Origin: Oscillospiraceae bacterium
GTDB taxonomy: Bacteria > Bacillota > Clostridia > Oscillospirales > Oscillospiraceae
Direction: 5' to 3'
NCBI GenBank assembly: GCA_017506735.1
Contig: JAFVMW010000013.1
Location: 1 to 41,207, forward strand
Length of the DNA: 41,207 bases
The first letter of the stretch is position 1. Every line of letters begins with the position of its first letter. Below the pieces are notes generated by a model that saw nothing but the letters and a program-made list of their open reading frames with translations, did no database searches and was not told the DNA's origin. A program made the translations under genes and the position numbers. Positions 6,007-21,536 of the stretch are shown one piece after another.

Positions 6007-7827
6007 TTACTTACCCACGCACTCGTCAAGACCCAGTCTCTTCAGAGTCTCATCAGTGGGGAAGGCAGCCTCCCAGCCGCGGACCTTATAGTACTCGGGC
6101 AGGGTGATGGGCAGCTTGGAAACCAGACCCTTGGAGGGACCGTCGGGGATGGGCTCCTCCAGCAGACGCTTGGGCAGGCGGTCATCCTCGGGCTTCATGC
6201 CGGCAGCCTTGTTGAACATACGCTCGATGTTGTAGATACGCTCGCCGATCTCCAGAACCTGCTCGGGAGTGTACTCGGTGCCGCAGGCAGCGTTCAGCAG
6301 CTTGGTGTACTCGGGAGCACCCAGAGCGAAGGAGGTGAACAGGCACAGACCCATGGAGTCGATGACTGCGGTCAGATCCTGGAAGGTCTTGGACCAGAAG
6401 GCCTTCTCGTTGGTGACGGTACGGTCCAGCTGGACGGGCAGACCCACGACCTCGGGAGCGATGGTGTAGCCACGGACATGGCAGCCGCCGCGGTTGGAGG
6501 TGGCGTAAGTAATGCCGATACCCTGAACGCCACGGGCGTCGTAAGCAGGCATCTCCTGCTTCTTGACGGCCATGGAAACCTCGGGCATACCGTAGTGCTC
6601 ACACAGACGGGCGGAGCCGGAGCTCATCAGCCAATCCAGCTCGGTCTTGGGATCGCCCATGCGCTTGGTCCACTCGATGGCGGAAGCGGCATTGCCCCAC
6701 TCCAGGGGAGCGCCGGCGCAGTCCTCTTCCTTGATGGCGCCGCGCTGGTACAGCTCCATAGCGGCAGCGATGGTGCAGGGAACAGAGATGGCATCCAGGC
6801 CGTACTCGTTGCACCACATATTGGCTTCGTTGATGGAAGCCAGGTCGCTGTTGGCCATGTTGGCACCGTAGGCCCACAGAGGCTCGTACTCGGGACCGCC
6901 GACCACCTTGTCGCCGACCTTGACGATACGGCCGCAGGCGATGGGGCAGCGGTGGCAGGCACCGGCCTTGACCAGATACTTCTCGGCCAGAGCTTCGCCG
7001 GAAACGTCCTCAGCCTGATCGTAGTAAGACTCCTGCCAGTTCTTGGTGGGCAGGGAGCCGACGCCGTTGATGACGTTGACCAGGGATGCGGTGCCCAGAG
7101 CCCGCAGACCGCCGCCGGTCAGACCGTTCTCACGGATGTTGACCATGACGTCCTTGTTTGCAGCCTTCAGAGCCTCGGCAGAGGCCAGAACCTCGTCAGC
7201 GTTCTTCTTGGAAGCGGTGACGACGATGCCCTTCAGCTTCTTGGAACCCATGACAGCGCCGACGCCGGAACGGCCGGCAGCACGGTCCTTATCGTTCATG
7301 ATGGCGGCGAGCAGAACCTTCTTCTCACCGGCGATGCCGATGGTCAGAACGGAGGAATCCTTGCCGTGCTTCTCCTTCAGCTTCTCGTCGCACTCCTCGG
7401 AGAACAGGCCCAGGTATTCACGGGCATCCAGCAGCTCGATCTTGTCGTCCACGATGTTGATGTAGGTCCACTCGGGAGCCTCGCCCTCAACGATCAGAGC
7501 GTCCCAGCCGGCGTACTTCAGCTTGGCACCCCAGATGCCGCCGGAGTTGGAGCAGGCGATCATGCCGGTCAGGGGGGACTTGGTGACGACCATGTAACGG
7601 CCGGAGGAGGGAGCGCCGGCGCCGGTCAGAGGACCGGTGATGTAAACCAGCTTGTTGTCAGGACCCAGGGGATCCACGGTTGCACAGCCCTCGTCGTAGA
7701 CGATCTTGGTGCCCAGACCGCGGCCGCCGATGAACTTCTTGGCCAGATCGGTATCCAGCTTTTCAACGGTGACGGTGCCGGTGGTCAGGTTGATGCGGGC
7801 TATTTTTTCATAGTATGCGTATGCCAT
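6007..7827 (-). CDS. aor: Aldehyde:ferredoxin oxidoreductase (tungsten bis-pterin enzyme)
   Basis: A 606-residue member of the AOR family, which oxidises aldehydes to acids with a tungsten bis-pyranopterin cofactor and passes electrons to ferredoxin. The [4Fe-4S] cysteines are clear: C291, C294, C298 (CHRCPIAC) and C495 (in DSMGLC). These match the spacing and nearly the numbering of Pyrococcus AOR. The N-terminal IARINLTTG...FIGGRGLG block and the central GPEYEPLWAYGANM block, which contact the pterins in the family, are intact. Start was chosen at 7827 because GGGAGG lies 8 bases upstream. No signal peptide is seen, so it is cytoplasmic. Codon use is strongly biased to CTG, GGC and AAG, consistent with high expression. 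The uptake, pterin and maturase genes in the window support tungsten rather than molybdenum. The substrate is unknown. Confidence 0.92.
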   Translation of the reverse strand: MAYAYYEKIARINLTTGTVTVEKLDTDLAKKFIGGRGLGTKIVYDEGCATVDPLGPDNKLVYITGPLTGAGAPSSGRYMVVTKSPLTGMIACSNSGGIWGAKLKYAGWDALIVEGEAPEWTYINIVDDKIELLDAREYLGLFSEECDEKLKEKHGKDSSVLTIGIAGEKKVLLAAIMNDKDRAAGRSGVGAVMGSKKLKGIVVTASKKNADEVLASAEALKAANKDVMVNIRENGLTGGGLRALGTASLVNVINGVGSLPTKNWQESYYDQAEDVSGEALAEKYLVKAGACHRCPIACGRIVKVGDKVVGGPEYEPLWAYGANMANSDLASINEANMWCNEYGLDAISVPCTIAAAMELYQRGAIKEEDCAGAPLEWGNAASAIEWTKRMGDPKTELDWLMSSGSARLCEHYGMPEVSMAVKKQEMPAYDARGVQGIGITYATSNRGGCHVRGYTIAPEVVGLPVQLDRTVTNEKAFWSKTFQDLTAVIDSMGLCLFTSFALGAPEYTKLLNAACGTEYTPEQVLEIGERIYNIERMFNKAAGMKPEDDRLPKRLLEEPIPDGPSKGLVSKLPITLPEYYKVRGWEAAFPTDETLKRLGLDECVGK

Positions 7828-7880
7828 AACAATGCCTCCCAAAGTTTTGAAATAGTCACGTTTTTTCCTTGGATACCTTA

Positions 7881-8075: not shown

Positions 8076-8118
8076 GTAGCTTATGAATCTGTAGAGTTGT
8101 ACCAGTGGAGGAATGGCT

Positions 8119-9054
8119 ATGGCCCAGAACAAATCCCTGTCCACCCAGGAGGTTGCTGACATTCTCCATGTCAGCAAGTCCACCATATATGACCTGATCC
8201 GCAGAGGAGAGATCCACTCCTATAAGATCGGGCGGAAGGTCCGCTTCACCCAGGACGATGTGGATGCCTACATTGCCCGTTCCCGGCATGAGCATTCCAC
8301 CCGGCCTGTAAAGAATATCGACACCCATTCCACCCTTCTGACTCCGGAAAGGAACGAAGAACCGGAGCTGATCATCTCGGGACAGGATGTGGTGCTGGAC
8401 ATTCTTGCCAACTACCTCCAGCAGGAGGGGGTAAACACCGCCCGGACCTATCTGAACAGCTTTGAAGGCCTGCTGTCGCTGTACCAGGACAACATCCAGG
8501 TGGCGGCCTGCCATCTGTTTGACGGCTCTGATTACAACACCTCCTTCGTCCGCAGCCTGATGCCGGGCGTGACCGCGGTGCTGGTGAATGTGAGCTACCG
8601 CACCCAGGGCTTTTATGTTCAGAAGGGAAATCCCAAGGGAATCAAGGGCTGGTCCGACCTGGGCCGGGAGGATATTACGGTGCTGAACCGCCGGGTGGGC
8701 TCCTCCGCCCGGATTCTGATGGACACCCAGCTGAAGCGTCTGGGCATTCCGGCATCCAGGGTCCGGGGCTATGACAGAATTATGAAATCCCATCTGACCA
8801 TGGCGGCAGCCATCGCCGCCGGAGAAGCGGATCTGGCCATCGGCACGGAACGGATCTCCCGGCAGATTGAGAATCTGGATTTCATCCCGCTGCTTGAGGA
8901 GCGGTTCGACTTTGTCATTAAAAAGGAACGGATGGAAACAGAAGCTGTCCGGAAGCTGATGAAGGTTCTGAAGGACCCGGCCTTTGCCCGGGAGATCGCG
9001 CATTTTTCAGGAAATGATTACCGGGATCTGGGAAAGATCATTACGGAGGTTTAA
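8119..9054 (+). CDS. Transcriptional regulator: excisionase-type HTH plus PBP-like sensor domain
   Basis: A 311-residue two-domain protein. Residues 1-50 form an excisionase/MerR-like winged HTH (LSTQEVADILHVSKSTIYD, then GEIHSYKIGRKVRF). Residues about 85-295 form a periplasmic-binding-protein-like domain without signal peptide, of the kind also fused to MoeA proteins: CHLFDGSDYNTSF, QGFYVQKGNP, NRRVGSSARIL and a run ending in LDFIPLLEERFDFVI. ATG at 8119 is preferred because GGAGG (8107-8111) is 7 bases away; the ATG at 8113 is only one base from it. It is the first gene of the pterin operon and divergent from AOR, so it probably controls both. The ligand may be tungstate, molybdate or a pterin; this is inference. 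Either activation or repression is possible. Confidence 0.8.
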   Translation: MAQNKSLSTQEVADILHVSKSTIYDLIRRGEIHSYKIGRKVRFTQDDVDAYIARSRHEHSTRPVKNIDTHSTLLTPERNEEPELIISGQDVVLDILANYLQQEGVNTARTYLNSFEGLLSLYQDNIQVAACHLFDGSDYNTSFVRSLMPGVTAVLVNVSYRTQGFYVQKGNPKGIKGWSDLGREDITVLNRRVGSSARILMDTQLKRLGIPASRVRGYDRIMKSHLTMAAAIAAGEADLAIGTERISRQIENLDFIPLLEERFDFVIKKERMETEAVRKLMKVLKDPAFAREIAHFSGNDYRDLGKIITEV

Positions 9055-15316: not shown

Positions 15317-15796
15317 ATGTCCGACTTTACCCATTTTAATGAACAGGGCCGGGCCAAAATGGTGGATGTGGGCGAAAAGCCCATCTCCCAACGTGTGGCA
15401 GTAGCCGCCGCCCGGGTTCTGGTGAACGAAAAGACCTTCGGTCTGATCCGCTCCGGCGGTATGAAAAAGGGCGATGTGCTCACCGTGGCCCAGATCGCCG
15501 GCGTCATGGGCGCCAAGCGTACCCCGGATCTGATCCCCATGTGCCACCCCATTCTGATGGACGGCATCAATCTGGACCTTTCCCTGGACGAAGTCCGGCT
15601 GTCTGTGGAGATCAGGGCAACCGTGTCCTGCGACGGCCGTACCGGCGTGGAGATGGAGGCCCTCACAGCCGTATCCACTGCCGCACTGACGGTGTACGAT
15701 ATGTGCAAGGCCGTCCAGAAGGATATGGTCATCACTGACATCCGCCTGCTGAGCAAGACCGGCGGTGTCCACGGCGATTACAAACGGGAGGAATAA
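15317..15796 (+). CDS. moaC: Cyclic pyranopterin monophosphate synthase MoaC
   Basis: A 159-residue MoaC, which acts after MoaA to make cyclic pyranopterin monophosphate. Near the N-terminus is MVDVGEKPISQRVAVA. The catalytic PMCHPI block follows and the C-terminal part has GVEMEALTAVSTAALTVYDMCKA and DIRLLSKTGG, all diagnostic. GGAGG lies 9 bases before the ATG, overlapping the end of moaA. Length is normal for the family. Confidence 0.96.
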   Translation: MSDFTHFNEQGRAKMVDVGEKPISQRVAVAAARVLVNEKTFGLIRSGGMKKGDVLTVAQIAGVMGAKRTPDLIPMCHPILMDGINLDLSLDEVRLSVEIRATVSCDGRTGVEMEALTAVSTAALTVYDMCKAVQKDMVITDIRLLSKTGGVHGDYKREE

Positions 15797-15798
15797 AT

Positions 15799-16290
15799 AT
15801 GTATACAGCAGCAGTCATTACCATCAGCGATAAGGGCTACCGTGGGGAGCGTGTGGATACCAGCGGCCCCAATCTGGTGGAAATTCTGAAGGAAAAGGGC
15901 TTTGATGTGACCTATACCTCCATCATTCCCGACGAAAAGGACATGATCAAAGCAGAGCTGTGCAAATGCGCCGACGAGCTTCAAATCGCCCTGGTGCTGA
16001 CCACCGGCGGCACCGGCTTCTCTCCCCGGGACATCACCCCTGAGGCCACCATGGAGGTCATTGAGCGCCCCACCCCCGGCATTCCCGAGGCCATGCGCTA
16101 CGAATCCCTGAAGATCACCCCCAAGGGCTGTCTGAGCCGCTCCGCAGCAGGCATCCGGGGCAGAAGCCTGATCATCAACCTGCCCGGCAGCAAGAAGGCC
16201 AGCCAGGAAAACATTCTGGCAGTCATCGACCCCGTGGCCCACGGCCTGGATATGCTCTACTCCGAAGGCAGCGCCGACTGCGCCAAATAA
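15799..16290 (+). CDS. Molybdopterin adenylyltransferase, MogA/MoaB family
   Basis: A 163-residue protein that adenylates molybdopterin before MoeA inserts the metal. Key family motifs are TISDKGYRGERVDTSGP, TTGGTGFSPRDITPEAT with the catalytic aspartates, IERPTPGIPEAMR, and LSRSAAGIRGRSLIINLPGSKKA. It starts 2 bases after moaC with GGGAGG upstream, and is the last gene of the pterin operon. MogA and MoaB share these motifs, so the exact symbol is left open. It completes a moeA, moeA-PBP, moaA, moaC, mogA set; MoaD and MoaE functions lie elsewhere in the window. Confidence 0.94.
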   Translation: MYTAAVITISDKGYRGERVDTSGPNLVEILKEKGFDVTYTSIIPDEKDMIKAELCKCADELQIALVLTTGGTGFSPRDITPEATMEVIERPTPGIPEAMRYESLKITPKGCLSRSAAGIRGRSLIINLPGSKKASQENILAVIDPVAHGLDMLYSEGSADCAK

Positions 16291-16362: not shown

Positions 16363-16797
16363 ATGATTCGAAAAGCGACAAAGGATGATAGCTTTGTTTT
16401 GGCACAGATGGCTGTTCAAATGTGGGATAGTCATACCGCAGATGAATTAGAAATAGAGTTTTCAGAAACGCAGAATAACGGACAATCGGTTTTTTTCATC
16501 AAGTATCTCGGTGAAATCCCCATTGGTTTCGCGCAGTGTGGCTTGCGAAAAGACTATGTTGAAGGAACAGAAAGTTCTCCCGTGGGTTACTTGGAGGGTA
16601 TTTTCGTAAAGGAAAAATATCGAAAGAACGGGTATGCAAAAGAGTTGCTGTGTGCTTGCGAAATGTGGGCAAAAGAAGCTGGATGCAGTGAGTTTGCAAG
16701 TGACTGCGAGATAGACAACATGGACAGCTTCAGATTCCACATGTCGGTGGGCTTTGATGAAGCAAATCGTATCATCTGTTTCAAGAAAAAATTGTAA
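16363..16797 (+). CDS. GNAT-family N-acetyltransferase
   Basis: A 144-residue GNAT protein. It begins IRKATKDDSFVLAQMAVQMW and has the central beta-strand block VGYLEGIFVKEKYRKNGYAKELL, whose RKNGYAKEL part is the acetyl-CoA-binding loop. The C-terminus ends VGFDEANRIICFKKKL. The pattern resembles aminoglycoside 6'-N-acetyltransferase-like members, but the substrate cannot be assigned. Its base composition is clearly richer in A and T than the flanking genes, with codons such as AAA, GAA and TTT favoured. It is 72 bases past the pterin operon and has no functional link to it, so recent acquisition is likely. Confidence 0.85.
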   Translation: MIRKATKDDSFVLAQMAVQMWDSHTADELEIEFSETQNNGQSVFFIKYLGEIPIGFAQCGLRKDYVEGTESSPVGYLEGIFVKEKYRKNGYAKELLCACEMWAKEAGCSEFASDCEIDNMDSFRFHMSVGFDEANRIICFKKKL

Positions 16798-16867: not shown

Positions 16868-17263
16868 TTATGCATAAAGCTCCGTTTCCACAACGCATTC
16901 ATTTTTGATCCGGCCAACCAGATAGTTCAGGGCATCAACCACTCTGGGCCGGATGTCGCCGCCGATGAGCACATACATAATATCGTCGCCCATCTTCAGC
17001 GCACCCTCGTTGAGCCAGACACGGATGTAATAGATGCCGTCGAGTTTATAGGCATCGCGGATGACGGCGTTGACCTTCGCTTCGTCATAGGAAAAAATCA
17101 TGCCGGTGACTTCCTTGGTGTTTTCTTCGCCGTAGCGGACCTTTGCCTTGGCGCTCTGCCGGACGGTGCCGTTGTGGGTCAGATACATTCCGCACAGGGG
17201 GGCGGATTCGTGGGCCTTGGCTTCCATCAGCCAGGCATCAATGGAAGGGGTGGGCTTCGCCAT
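16868..17263 (-). CDS. MoaE-like molybdopterin synthase large subunit (divergent)
   Basis: A 131-residue protein. The middle part has CGMYLTHNGTVR, equivalent to the G-V-R region of MoaE. The end has EGALKMGDDIMYVLIGGDIRPRVVDALNYLVGRIKNECVVETE, matching the GD-V-V...R...F...L...IK pattern of the family, including the late lysine. It is closer to the short clostridial MoaE-like proteins than to E. coli MoaE. Role inferred: pairs with a MoaD-type carrier to turn precursor Z into molybdopterin, filling the one step missing from the pterin operon. Its start is set by GGAGGT, which lies inside the last codons of the upstream gene. It is placed outside the main operon and on the opposite strand. 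Confidence 0.65.
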   Translation of the reverse strand: MAKPTPSIDAWLMEAKAHESAPLCGMYLTHNGTVRQSAKAKVRYGEENTKEVTGMIFSYDEAKVNAVIRDAYKLDGIYYIRVWLNEGALKMGDDIMYVLIGGDIRPRVVDALNYLVGRIKNECVVETELYA

Positions 17264-17770: not shown

Positions 17771-18820
17771 ATGAAAAAGATCATCTCCCTGCTGCTGGCG
17801 CTGACCATGGTCATGACCCTGGCTGCCTGCGGCACCACCCCCCCGGAAACCACCGCCCCCCCTGCAACCGATCCTGTCCCCGAGACCACTGCTCCTGCTC
17901 CCGAAACCACCGTCCCCATGGAAACTGAGCCTGCTCTGGTTGTGGACACCTGCATCCTGAAGGAAGCAGATGACAAGATGCTCAACACTTACTCCGCCAT
18001 TGCGGTGAACCCCGAGGCTCCCTTCGTGGACGCTGACGGCAACGCCGTTTCCGATGTCTATGTGAACACCGCCGGTGCCGATGCCCTGGTTCAGTGGCTG
18101 CTGACCGCTGAGGCTCTGGACATGGCTGCAAACTACGGCTTCGCTGAGTACGGCGAGTACCTGTTCTATGTTCTGGAGAACGCTCCCGTTTACACCGGTG
18201 AGATCGCCGCTGCCACCGAGGAGACCAAGACCATCCGCCTGTCCACCACCACCTCCGTCAAGGACTCCGGCCTGCTTGGCTACCTGCTGCCTGCCTTTGA
18301 GGCCGCCTACGGCTACACTGTGGAGGTTCAGTCCGCCGGTACCGGCAAGGCCATCGCTGCCGCCAAGGCCGGCAACGCCGACCTGATCCTGGTCCACTCC
18401 AAGAGCCAGGAGGAGACCTTCGTTGCTGACGGCTTCGGCCGCACCGTTTCCGGCTTCGAGGCCGAGCGTGTTTCCTTCATCTACAACTACTTCGTCCTGT
18501 GCGGTCCCTCCGCTGACCCTGCCGGCGCAGCCGCTGCCGCTTCCGTTCTGGATGCCTTTGCGGCCATCGCTGAGGGCAAGCATACCTTCATCTCCCGTGG
18601 TGACGGCTCCGGCACCCACACCAAGGAGCTGGCCCTGTGGCCTGCTGAGCTGGGCATTGCCAAGGAAGCTGAGTCCTTCGCAGCCTACACCGAATGGTAT
18701 GTGTCCGCCAACACCGGCATGGGCGCCTGCCTGGTCATGGCTGAGGAGATGGGCGGCTACATCCTCACCGATAAGGCCACCTTCCTGACCTTTGTCGCCA
18801 ACGACGGCGTTATGGGTTGA
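17771..18820 (+). CDS. tupA: Tungstate-binding lipoprotein, TupA family, with permuted domain order
   Basis: A 349-residue ABC-transporter binding lipoprotein that captures tungstate outside the cell. Residues 1-20 are a lipoprotein signal (MKKIISLLLALTMVMTLAAC, lipid on C20), followed by a Thr/Pro-rich linker to about 55. The TupA signature STTTS is at 158-162, followed by DSGLL, GTGKAIA, SRGDGSGTH and LTDKATFL (332-339), after which the protein stops. The segment that normally ends TupA (NPYSVIAVNP..., WL..., YG..LF) is instead at 68-135, before STTTS. So the order is circularly permuted relative to usual TupA. Start has GGAGG 8 bases upstream. tupB and tupC follow, so tungstate is a better guess than molybdate or phosphate. 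Confidence 0.88.
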   Translation: MKKIISLLLALTMVMTLAACGTTPPETTAPPATDPVPETTAPAPETTVPMETEPALVVDTCILKEADDKMLNTYSAIAVNPEAPFVDADGNAVSDVYVNTAGADALVQWLLTAEALDMAANYGFAEYGEYLFYVLENAPVYTGEIAAATEETKTIRLSTTTSVKDSGLLGYLLPAFEAAYGYTVEVQSAGTGKAIAAAKAGNADLILVHSKSQEETFVADGFGRTVSGFEAERVSFIYNYFVLCGPSADPAGAAAAASVLDAFAAIAEGKHTFISRGDGSGTHTKELALWPAELGIAKEAESFAAYTEWYVSANTGMGACLVMAEEMGGYILTDKATFLTFVANDGVMG

Positions 18821-18848: not shown

Positions 18849-18876
18849 TCCCGTGGGGCAACCCACGGGATTTTTT
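18849..18876 (+). terminator. Terminator after tupA
   Basis: A 9-bp perfect stem TCCCGTGGG (18849-18857) with its complement at 18862-18870 has a GCAA tetraloop and is followed by six T residues. It would make most tupA transcripts monocistronic, giving more binding protein than transporter. Confidence 0.88.
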
Positions 18877-18885
18877 GGAATTATA

Positions 18886-19037
18886 CTAATTTCCAATAAG
18901 AACCTTTAATACCTCGTCGAGGATAAATTGCGTCAGAAAAGGCCGAGGACGACGGTGGGCTGTCGCCCACCTAGGACGAGAACGCATTATGACGGAATTT
19001 AGACCGACGAGGGTTAAAGGATTCTATTAGAAATTAG
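18886..19037. mobile_element. MITE-like palindromic element with TA target duplication
   Basis: About 152 bases begin with CTAATTTCCAATAAG and end with the near-perfect complement (CTATTAGAAATTAG at the right). The roughly 24-base terminal inverted repeats continue inward as imperfect pairing (CCTCGTCG / CGACGAGG). A central stem GGTGGGC / GCCCACC completes a long hairpin. The dinucleotide TA flanks both ends (18884-18885 and 19038-19039), as expected for IS630/Tc1-type transposition. No coding capacity. It separates tupA from tupB. Confidence 0.65.
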
Positions 19038-19056
19038 TAAAACGGGGGGAAACGGT

Positions 19057-19743
19057 GTGAAAACCTCTCTGATCAAAGCAATCGAGCTGATTCTCTCCGC
19101 CGACGCGGAGCTTCTGAATATTCTGTCCGTTACCGCGGAAATGAGCCTGAAAAGCTCCGTGCTGGCCCTGCTCATCGGTCTGCCCATCGGCATCTGGCTG
19201 GGTGCCTGCCGGTTCCCGGGCAGGGGAATGGTGCTGGTTGTCAACCGCACCTTGCAGGGAATGCCCCCTGTGGTCTGCGGACTGCTGTTTTATATGCTGT
19301 TTTCCGGTGTTGGCCCCTTCCGGCATCTGAAGCTGTTGTTTACCGTGAAGATCATGGTCATGGCCCAGGTGGTGCTGATCACCCCCATCGTGGTGAACGC
19401 CATGGAGAGCTATGTGGCAGGGGTTGCGCCCTCCGTCCGGGAAACTGCCCGGGGCTTGGGGCTGGGCGGCGTGAAAACCTTCGGCCTTCTCTGCAACGAG
19501 TGTGTGTATCAGATCATCTCCGCCTATCTGCTGGCCTTTGCCCGGTCCATCGCCGAGGTGGGCGCGGTGTCCATGGTGGGCGGCGCCATCAGCTGGAAAA
19601 CCAACGTGATGACCACCGCCATCATGCAGCACACCAACCGGGGCAGCTTCTCCCTGGGCATCGCTCTGGGACTGATCCTGCTGACCATTTCCCTGATCGT
19701 CAATACCGTCATTTCTCTGCTGCAAAGGAGGCTGAGCCGATGA
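19057..19743 (+). CDS. tupB: Tungstate ABC transporter permease TupB
   Basis: A 228-residue membrane permease with about five or six hydrophobic segments. The cytoplasmic coupling loop VAPSVRETARGLGLGGVKTFGLL contains the EA/G-x-LG-type motif contacting the ATPase. The C-terminal block FARSIAEVGAVSMVGGAI is typical of TupB. It starts with GTG, supported by GGGGGGA 7 bases upstream. It overlaps tupC by ATGA and carries tungstate, delivered by TupA, across the membrane. Confidence 0.88.
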   Translation: MKTSLIKAIELILSADAELLNILSVTAEMSLKSSVLALLIGLPIGIWLGACRFPGRGMVLVVNRTLQGMPPVVCGLLFYMLFSGVGPFRHLKLLFTVKIMVMAQVVLITPIVVNAMESYVAGVAPSVRETARGLGLGGVKTFGLLCNECVYQIISAYLLAFARSIAEVGAVSMVGGAISWKTNVMTTAIMQHTNRGSFSLGIALGLILLTISLIVNTVISLLQRRLSR

Positions 19744-20393
19744 AGCTGTCCCCCTTCACCAAAACCTATGAGGGCAGGCAGGTGCTGGATTTTCCCGGCA
19801 TGGAACTGAAAAAAGGAACCATTTACGCCGTCATCGGTGCCAACGGCAGCGGAAAATCCACCTTCGCCAAAATTGTCTCCGGGATTCTGAAGGCCGACCG
19901 GGGCGGCTGCCCCGTATCCGGCGGAACCGTGGGATACCTGCCCCAGAAGCATTACGCCTTTCGGATGACCACCAAAGCAAACCTTCTGCTCAACGGCAAA
20001 TCGGAAGCCCGGGCCTGTGAGCTGATGGACGCCCTGCAGCTCCGGCATCTGGAAGCCAAACGGGCAGACCGGCTCTCCGGCGGCGAAACCGCCCGGATGG
20101 CCCTGGCCCGGCTGATGATGAACCGCTATGACCTGGTGCTGCTGGACGAACCCACTGCCGCCATGGATATGGAAACCACCCTGCTGTCAGAACAGCGGAT
20201 CGCCCGGTATGTACAGGAAACCGGCTGCACCCTGATTCTTGTGACCCACAGCCTCCAGCAGGCCCGTCGGCTGGCAGGGGAGGTCTGGTATTTCCACAGG
20301 GGAAAGCTGCTGGAGTCCGGTGCCGCGGACCAGGTTCTTTCCCACCCGGAACAGCCCCAGACCCGGCAGTTTCTGGATTTTTACGGCATTTAA
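19740..20393 (+). CDS. tupC: Tungstate ABC transporter ATPase TupC
   Basis: A 217-residue ABC ATPase. Walker A is GANGSGKST (residues 33-41), the signature is LSGGE, Walker B is LVLLDEPTAAMD and the switch histidine is in LVTHS. No C-terminal regulatory domain of the ModC/MopI type is present, as usual for TupC. It is coupled to tupB by an ATGA overlap and is followed 12 bases later by the radical SAM maturase, so all three are one transcript. Confidence 0.9.
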   Translation: MKLSPFTKTYEGRQVLDFPGMELKKGTIYAVIGANGSGKSTFAKIVSGILKADRGGCPVSGGTVGYLPQKHYAFRMTTKANLLLNGKSEARACELMDALQLRHLEAKRADRLSGGETARMALARLMMNRYDLVLLDEPTAAMDMETTLLSEQRIARYVQETGCTLILVTHSLQQARRLAGEVWYFHRGKLLESGAADQVLSHPEQPQTRQFLDFYGI

Positions 20394-20405: not shown

Positions 20406-21536
20406 ATGCTGAGAAAACTGTACATCGAGCCCACCGCAAAATGCAACCTCAACTGCAAAATGTGCTTTCGGCACACCTGGTTTGATGAGCCCATCTGCGA
20501 TCTGAGCCTGGAGGATTTCCGCCGGGTTCTGGAAACCATGCCCCGGTCTGTGGAAACGATTTTCTTCGGCGGCATGGGTGAGCCTCTGTTCCACAAGGAG
20601 ATTCTGACCATGATCCGCCTGGCGGCGGAAACCGGCGCGGAGGTGGAGCTGCTGACCAACGGAACGCTGCTCTCCGAAGCCATGATCTGCGGTCTGCTGG
20701 ATGCCGGCCTGTCCCGGCTGTGGATCTCCATTGACGATCTGGAAACCGATTCCTCCATCAACGCAAGCTCTGACCATGGGGCCCTGGATCACTCCGGCCA
20801 CAACCACTCCGGCCTGGTGCTGAGCAATATCCGCCTGCTCAACAAGCTCCGGCAGAAGCATCTGAGCAGCATCTCCCTGGGTATCACCTTTGTGGCCATG
20901 AAGAGCAACGTCCACCAGCTGGCGAAGCTGCCCTTCTTCATCGCCCAGCATCTGGTGGACGAGGTGAACGTGTCCAACATTTCGCCCACCGATGAATCCT
21001 CCCAGGAGGAGCTGCTGTACACAGGCCTTGTGAATATGTACACCGGCCCCGGCAAGGGAAGCGTGCTGCCCACCGTCCGGCTGCCCTTTTTTGACATGAA
21101 CATCCCCGAAGCCGCCGACGGCATCCGGAGCCTGATGCGCAAGCAGAATTTCAACCTCTATTTCAATGACCAGCCGGTGCTGCGGAAAACCGGCTACTGT
21201 AAATTCGTCCGGGAGGGCATGACCTTCGTCCGGGCCGACGGCGAGGTGTGCCCCTGCATGGCTCTGCTCCACAACGGCTACACCTGGATGAACGGCATCC
21301 GCCGGAAGATCACTCACTGCTCCTTCGGAAACGCGAAGCGGCAGTCCCTGGCAGAAATCTGGAACAGCCGGGAGTATCAAGCGTTCCGCAGAAAGTTTGA
21401 TGATTTTGACTTTGCCTCCTGTCTGTACTGCGGCCATTGCGAGCTGTTTTCCGAGAACCGGGAGGACTGCATCGGCAACACCCACCCCACCTGCGGCGGC
21501 TGCCTGTGGGCCGAGGGCGTGCTGAGCTGCCCGTAA
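20406..21536 (+). CDS. Tungsten-cofactor oxidoreductase radical SAM maturase
   Basis: A 376-residue radical SAM/SPASM protein. The SAM cluster motif is CNLNCKMC (C13, C17, C20), with GGMGEPL for SAM binding. The C-terminal third is cysteine-rich (YCKFVREG near 265, GEVCPCM, CLYCGHC and the final CGGC...CP), as in SPASM domains that hold auxiliary clusters. It matches the maturase subfamily that accompanies tungsten aldehyde oxidoreductases, and the AOR and tup genes here fit this. A His-rich stretch near residues 120-138 (DHGALDHSGHNHSG) is unusual and might bind a metal. GGAGG precedes the ATG. The modification it performs is not known. Confidence 0.85.
   Translation: MLRKLYIEPTAKCNLNCKMCFRHTWFDEPICDLSLEDFRRVLETMPRSVETIFFGGMGEPLFHKEILTMIRLAAETGAEVELLTNGTLLSEAMICGLLDAGLSRLWISIDDLETDSSINASSDHGALDHSGHNHSGLVLSNIRLLNKLRQKHLSSISLGITFVAMKSNVHQLAKLPFFIAQHLVDEVNVSNISPTDESSQEELLYTGLVNMYTGPGKGSVLPTVRLPFFDMNIPEAADGIRSLMRKQNFNLYFNDQPVLRKTGYCKFVREGMTFVRADGEVCPCMALLHNGYTWMNGIRRKITHCSFGNAKRQSLAEIWNSREYQAFRRKFDDFDFASCLYCGHCELFSENREDCIGNTHPTCGGCLWAEGVLSCP

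Follow-up and report, generated by a model that had tools for sequence, protein, structure and literature searches.

A TupA-type lipoprotein, very probably a circularly permuted tungstate-binding protein, in a clade of Clostridia

The window considered here (41,207 nucleotides, contig JAFVMW010000013.1 of the Oscillospiraceae assembly GCA_017506735.1) encodes a TupA-like protein of 349 residues, its gene preceded directly by GGAGG and followed by genes for TupB- and TupC-like partners (Table 1). An earlier note on this DNA had claimed that this TupA is circularly permuted, the canonical C-terminal segment standing behind a lipoprotein signal and a Thr/Pro linker; signal and linker are indeed present, as lipobox Cys20 and a tether spanning residues 21–56. 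Pfam and NCBIfam models detect the binding-protein core, NF041772 (TupA) aligning to residues 150–344 at profile positions 12–192 of 266, and a reference profile built from 38 canonical TupAs matches in two swapped pieces (positions 188–252 on residues 59–134, positions 4–184 on residues 147–342). Re-ordering the permuted protein for scoring yields 268.0 bits, where the core by itself reaches 222.7 and 20 shuffled controls 221.4–224.0. TupA structures are also the best phmmer matches in the PDB, 3muq_A being matched twice in swapped order (residues 153–341 to 5–178, 59–105 to 183–231) and 3lr1 and 5my5 showing weaker second stretches. The segment lies before STTTS, as the earlier note had it, but begins near residue 59 rather than at about 68.

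Table 1. Features of the permuted tupA gene and of its neighbourhood in the window.
Feature	Position	Strand	Basis
Permuted tupA gene, 349 amino acids	17771..18820	+	ORF, profile matches
Lipoprotein signal peptide, lipobox Cys20 (LAAC)	17771..17830	+	sequence
Tether rich in Thr/Pro/Ala/Glu, residues 21–56, low pLDDT	17831..17938	+	sequence, model
Moved segment (canonical TupA C-terminus, profile 188–252), residues 59–134	17945..18172	+	profile matches
Insert region PFVDADGNAVSDVY, clade-specific, residues 84–97	18020..18061	+	homologue comparison
New joint, old C-terminus to old N-terminus, residues 134–153	18170..18229	+	conservation, model
TupA core (profile 4–184) with TTTS 159–162, H209, R276, T282, D334	18218..18796	+	profile
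New C-terminal tail, residues 343–349	18797..18817	+	sequence
tupB, tungstate-type ABC permease	19057..19743	+	profile searches
tupC, ABC ATPase	19740..20393	+	profile searches; start codon picked by eye, searched from 19734
Radical SAM protein, best match tungsten cofactor oxidoreductase maturase TIGR04317 (258.7 bits, cut-off 380)	20406..21536	+	
moaA	14357..15313	+	
moaC	15317..15796	+	
mog/moaB-type molybdopterin-binding protein	15799..16290	+	
Aldehyde ferredoxin oxidoreductase family gene (tungsten enzyme family)	6007..7842	-	
ABC, ATP-binding cassette; ORF, open reading frame; pLDDT, predicted local distance difference test; SAM, S-adenosylmethionine.

The swapped order is shared well beyond the window. 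All 120 homologues listed (the window's own included; 120 of 4047 found) run segment then core, and the breakpoint is common to 62 of 62 permuted rows. Among 122 ORFs (a set in which duplicates are counted and the window's own gene occurs three times), 83 are segment–core, 38 core–segment and one core only; none carries the segment at both ends, the state that had been named beforehand as contradicting a permutation, and canonical relatives hold it C-terminally, where an unpermuted form should have it. All through a clade of Clostridia, the stretch ahead of the core corresponds to the final ~65 profile positions of canonical TupA, and a conserved new linker joins the two: P139, I145, A148, T149, E151 and T152 of the joint are each kept in 57 or more of the 62 rows, and the joint is predicted to be ordered (block-mean pLDDT 96–98). 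The segment also bears a DxDG-type motif in its insert (PFVDADGN), found in 62 of 65 permuted proteins and in none of the 39 others; by resemblance, it might be a calcium loop. An assembly or sequencing artefact, conceivable for a draft genome in 117 contigs, deserves next to no weight, the same order recurring in every homologue listed and at loci drawn from many different assemblies; these independent loci already contradict it.

In a sample of 300 genomes of the family, 245 gave some match; among the matches listed, the permuted form occurs in 34 genomes (30 by locus, 4 by match range) and the canonical form in 8, with none holding both (at most six candidates scored per genome). The remaining listed matches, except those in G041 (locus L091) and G249 (L092), are short ones to the signal peptide and linker and were left out of account. 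At class level, 47 of 391 genomes match, 4 of them permuted (the window's own, G665, G500 and G339, the last three from other families) and 43 whose match range covers the core only; reading the loci of 26 of the latter gave 25 core–segment proteins and one truncated core. In the phylum sample 186 of 398 genomes match, and among the matches listed only the window's own starts before query position 50. The permuted clade lies within Clostridia, with Oscillospiraceae in 22 of 46 record titles, and by those titles comprises mostly gut and rumen bacteria, whose unpermuted relatives are available for comparison.

We next turn to the predicted fold. The best structure matches of the model are TupA entries, followed by 3cvg, 4h1x, and ModA-type and LysR-type effector domains; profile, phmmer and structure matches agree on a core homologous to canonical TupA with a periplasmic binding protein (PBP)-type fold, while the canonical order of core then C-terminal segment is absent. 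In two confident models, the permuted protein opens with the five secondary-structure elements that close a canonical relative, in agreement with the swapped profile order and with the circular permutation originally claimed. A monomer prediction is also compatible with a domain-swapped dimer, in which the segment would complete a neighbouring molecule and not its own core; with the monomer model confident across segment and joint (pLDDT block means 89–99, residues 61–160) and the joint conserved, we hold such a swap to be highly improbable.

For canonical TupA, the available text of PMC5517513 assigns residues 2–76 and 201–251 to lobe A and 91–200 to lobe B. Transferred by hand via the phmmer/PDB alignments, these limits map to residues ~74–233 for lobe A and ~57–73 plus ~248–349 for lobe B, which would turn the A–B–A lobe topology into B–A–B while keeping the fold and its two hinge crossings. 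Since both termini map to lobe B, the lipid anchor would have shifted there from lobe A and the tether would pull on lobe B; it is from this mapping to published limits that we infer the altered anchoring, which the earlier note had put forward as a possible consequence, alongside a possible change in docking with TupB. From tether Cys to first domain residue the median is 36 in 56 permuted proteins with a recognised lipobox, versus 22 in 27 canonical ones (the lipobox went unrecognised in 11 permuted and 11 canonical rows and in the core-only row). More speculatively, and with rather low confidence, the permutation may re-anchor the protein by its opposite lobe and have become fixed with its own TupB/TupC lineage, such that no other form would serve these importers; if true, this would constitute a second, lobe-reversed presentation of a binding protein to a homodimeric permease.

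Trees inform on the history of the rearrangement. In a core-only tree (105 rows, L092 excluded, root not known; L091, whose branch is very long, is not placed reliably), 66 permuted rows fall on one side of one branch with a Shimodaira–Hasegawa-like approximate likelihood ratio (SH-aLRT) support of 100 (quick method). This fits a single origin and, with the shared breakpoint, shows that the order defines a clade, a question raised at the outset; profile order, the ORF survey and this branch together uphold permutation over duplication. Permuted rows of other families sit among Oscillospiraceae rows, which suggests transfer. The TupB proteins of permuted loci (65 rows) are likewise set apart by a single branch (SH-aLRT 100). 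The segment-only tree (83 columns, poorly resolved) places the permuted rows on one side of a branch with support 79.

The closest canonical comparison is an orphan TupA of genome G050 (L083:3794-4723, minus strand), which outscores every other canonical row in the core alignment (98 of 195 residues identical) and shares NTYS and EYGE.LF with the window protein, but in canonical order. On the canonical side of the core tree it branches off first, the support of the remainder being 85. No TupB or TupC lies within ~4 kb of it; G050 holds two TupB genes elsewhere (L124, L126), with TupC and, in the stretch examined, without TupA. These join the TupBs of permuted loci with a support of only 62, and both this join and that of L083 are flagged as long-branch meetings.

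Could the N-terminal segment instead be a captured fragment of another binding protein, set ahead of a truncated TupA and structurally convergent with the missing part? A similar option was raised for TpMglB-2 (in the available part of PMC4990184), the segment tree is poorly resolved, and the segment is less TupA-like than the core, with median identities of 0.31 and 0.45 (ratio 0.69) across 539 permuted–canonical pairs, where the 10-residue insert counts against the segment, compared with 0.44 and 0.53 (ratio 0.83) in 163 canonical pairs. Yet in 62 of 62 rows it matches TupA profile positions 188–252, directly beyond where the core stops, and the L083 segment is as close to permuted segments (median identity 0.365) as to canonical ones (0.373). 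We judge capture improbable; by the identity measure the segment has diverged somewhat more than the core, partly via the insert, without being foreign.

Circular permutation of the TupA chain would trace to one ancestral event, most simply a tandem duplication followed by fusion in frame and the loss of the two outer pieces, a standard model for circular permutation. Neighbouring same-strand canonical tupA copies, one strongly diverged, occur at L102 (G461:C11) and G361:C1:1986586-1989111, and adjacent pairs of this kind could give rise to a permutation. Separately, two distant relatives of permuted order (L091:3725-4825 and L092:3968-4573, counted within the 83; weak segment scores of 12 and 15 bits) have translations without TTTS or SRGD and no TupB or TupC nearby. 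L092 is short, and its neighbours presumably represent a glycyl-radical enzyme and its activator; both proteins are possibly repurposed or decaying copies.

Binding residues T9–S12, H59, R118, T124 and D170 are named for DaG20 TupA in the available text of PMC5517513. Their counterparts here, T159–S162, H209, R276, T282 and D334, are at least 90% conserved in A1, and tungstate would be bound in the usual cleft, TTTS coming from lobe A and Arg276, Thr282 and Asp334 from lobe B. Downstream of permuted tupA, TupB is present at 46 of 46 loci with flanks and TupC at 45, the exception (L028) being a sequence that stops 460 bases past tupA; in the window both are linked to tupA, and moeA-like genes are present besides those of Table 1. 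Of the 34 permuted genomes, 33 have the AFOR_N domain of aldehyde ferredoxin oxidoreductases (AORs), 21 of them no more than 15 kb from tupA; it also occurs in 8 of 8 canonical genomes and in 33 of 258 with neither form (permuted versus neither, p = 5e-24, relatedness uncorrected). Conserved binding residues, TupB, TupC and tungsten-enzyme genes point to tungstate uptake, and on this sequence evidence the protein very probably works as a tungstate-binding lipoprotein, which would deliver tungstate to TupB for AOR-type enzymes. Preference for another oxyanion such as molybdate, which the nearby moa/mog genes (also serving molybdenum) and scores below the curated TupA, TupB and TupC cut-offs would allow, is unlikely in view of the retained binding-residue counterparts, the nearby AOR and maturase-like genes and the frequency of AOR in permuted genomes.

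We are confident, though short of certain, that this gene's product is the lipoprotein that binds the substrate of a TupABC-type tungstate importer, and that its chain is circularly permuted. Several observations weigh against this. NF041772 scores 130 bits against a curated cut-off of 400, and TupB (144.5 against 320) and TupC (89 against 400) also fall short, which permutation explains in neither case; the moved segment shares only 25 of 74 residues with its L083 counterpart; no intermediate with a duplicated segment exists among the 122 ORFs; and the proposed spatial place of residues 59–140 is deduced from profile order, confidence values and the succession of secondary-structure elements. 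One permuted genome (G130) is without AOR, and since all 8 canonical-TupA genomes have AOR too, that enzyme indicates tungsten use and not permutation. By curated score and by segment order the protein is no member of the canonical TupA equivalog, but a permuted sister form of it.

Compared with canonical TupA (DaG20 TupA, 5my5; GsTupA, 3lr1; NF041772), the window protein has a homologous core and C-terminal segment, binding-residue counterparts and adjacent TupB and TupC genes; it differs in order, a score below the cut-off, putative lobe B anchor, 10-residue DxDG insert and new joint. Like TpMglB-2 (Tp0684), a circularly permuted glucose-binding lipoprotein of the 'Type Ic' kind, it is a natural permutation of a tethered ABC binding lipoprotein (PMC4990184, available part, as for what follows on TpMglB-2). 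That protein, however, has a Type I (Cluster B) sugar-binding fold with N-terminal strands moved to the C-terminus and gained a fourth crossover, whereas here a fold predicted to be of TupA/ModA type has its C-terminal part moved to the N-terminus and would keep two. The authors of the TpMglB-2 study propose tethering as a possible reason for permutation (PMC4990184), and the present clade makes testable why lipid-tethered binding proteins tolerate or select it. Our literature search found no published permuted TupA; natural permutation of binding proteins, already known in another fold class, seems here to extend to the TupA type. Permuted halves of the Thermotoga ribose-binding protein, a sugar-binding protein, reportedly bear on permutation and duplication in shaping binding proteins (PMC9815098); they are reported as halves, and not as an intact protein permuted in nature like the one described here. 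Permutation may partly explain why these proteins stay under the curated TupA cut-off, and counts of tungsten uptake in these bacteria could be too low as a result.

Directly 3′ of tupA and ahead of tupB, a terminator-like hairpin with a T run (18850..18876, plus strand, by eye) could raise the level of tupA over tupBC. It is followed at 18881–19042 by a 162-bp imperfect palindromic element (29-nt arms, 83% complementary) with 43 whole or partial matches in its own draft genome (own site included, 40 candidates scored), many at contig ends; this repeat, resembling a miniature inverted-repeat transposable element, widens the tupA–tupB gap. Between mog and a gene for a short MoaE-like protein (16868–17263, minus strand, opposite to the operon) lies an AAC(6′)-type acetyltransferase gene (16363–16797; NF043067, 191.2 against a cut-off of 140). 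Two further proteins, an excisionase-type helix-turn-helix domain fused to a part matching NF011068 positions 408–646 (8113–9054) and a MoeA fused to a PBP-like domain, PF12727 (10282–12192), are candidate molybdate- or tungstate-sensing parts.
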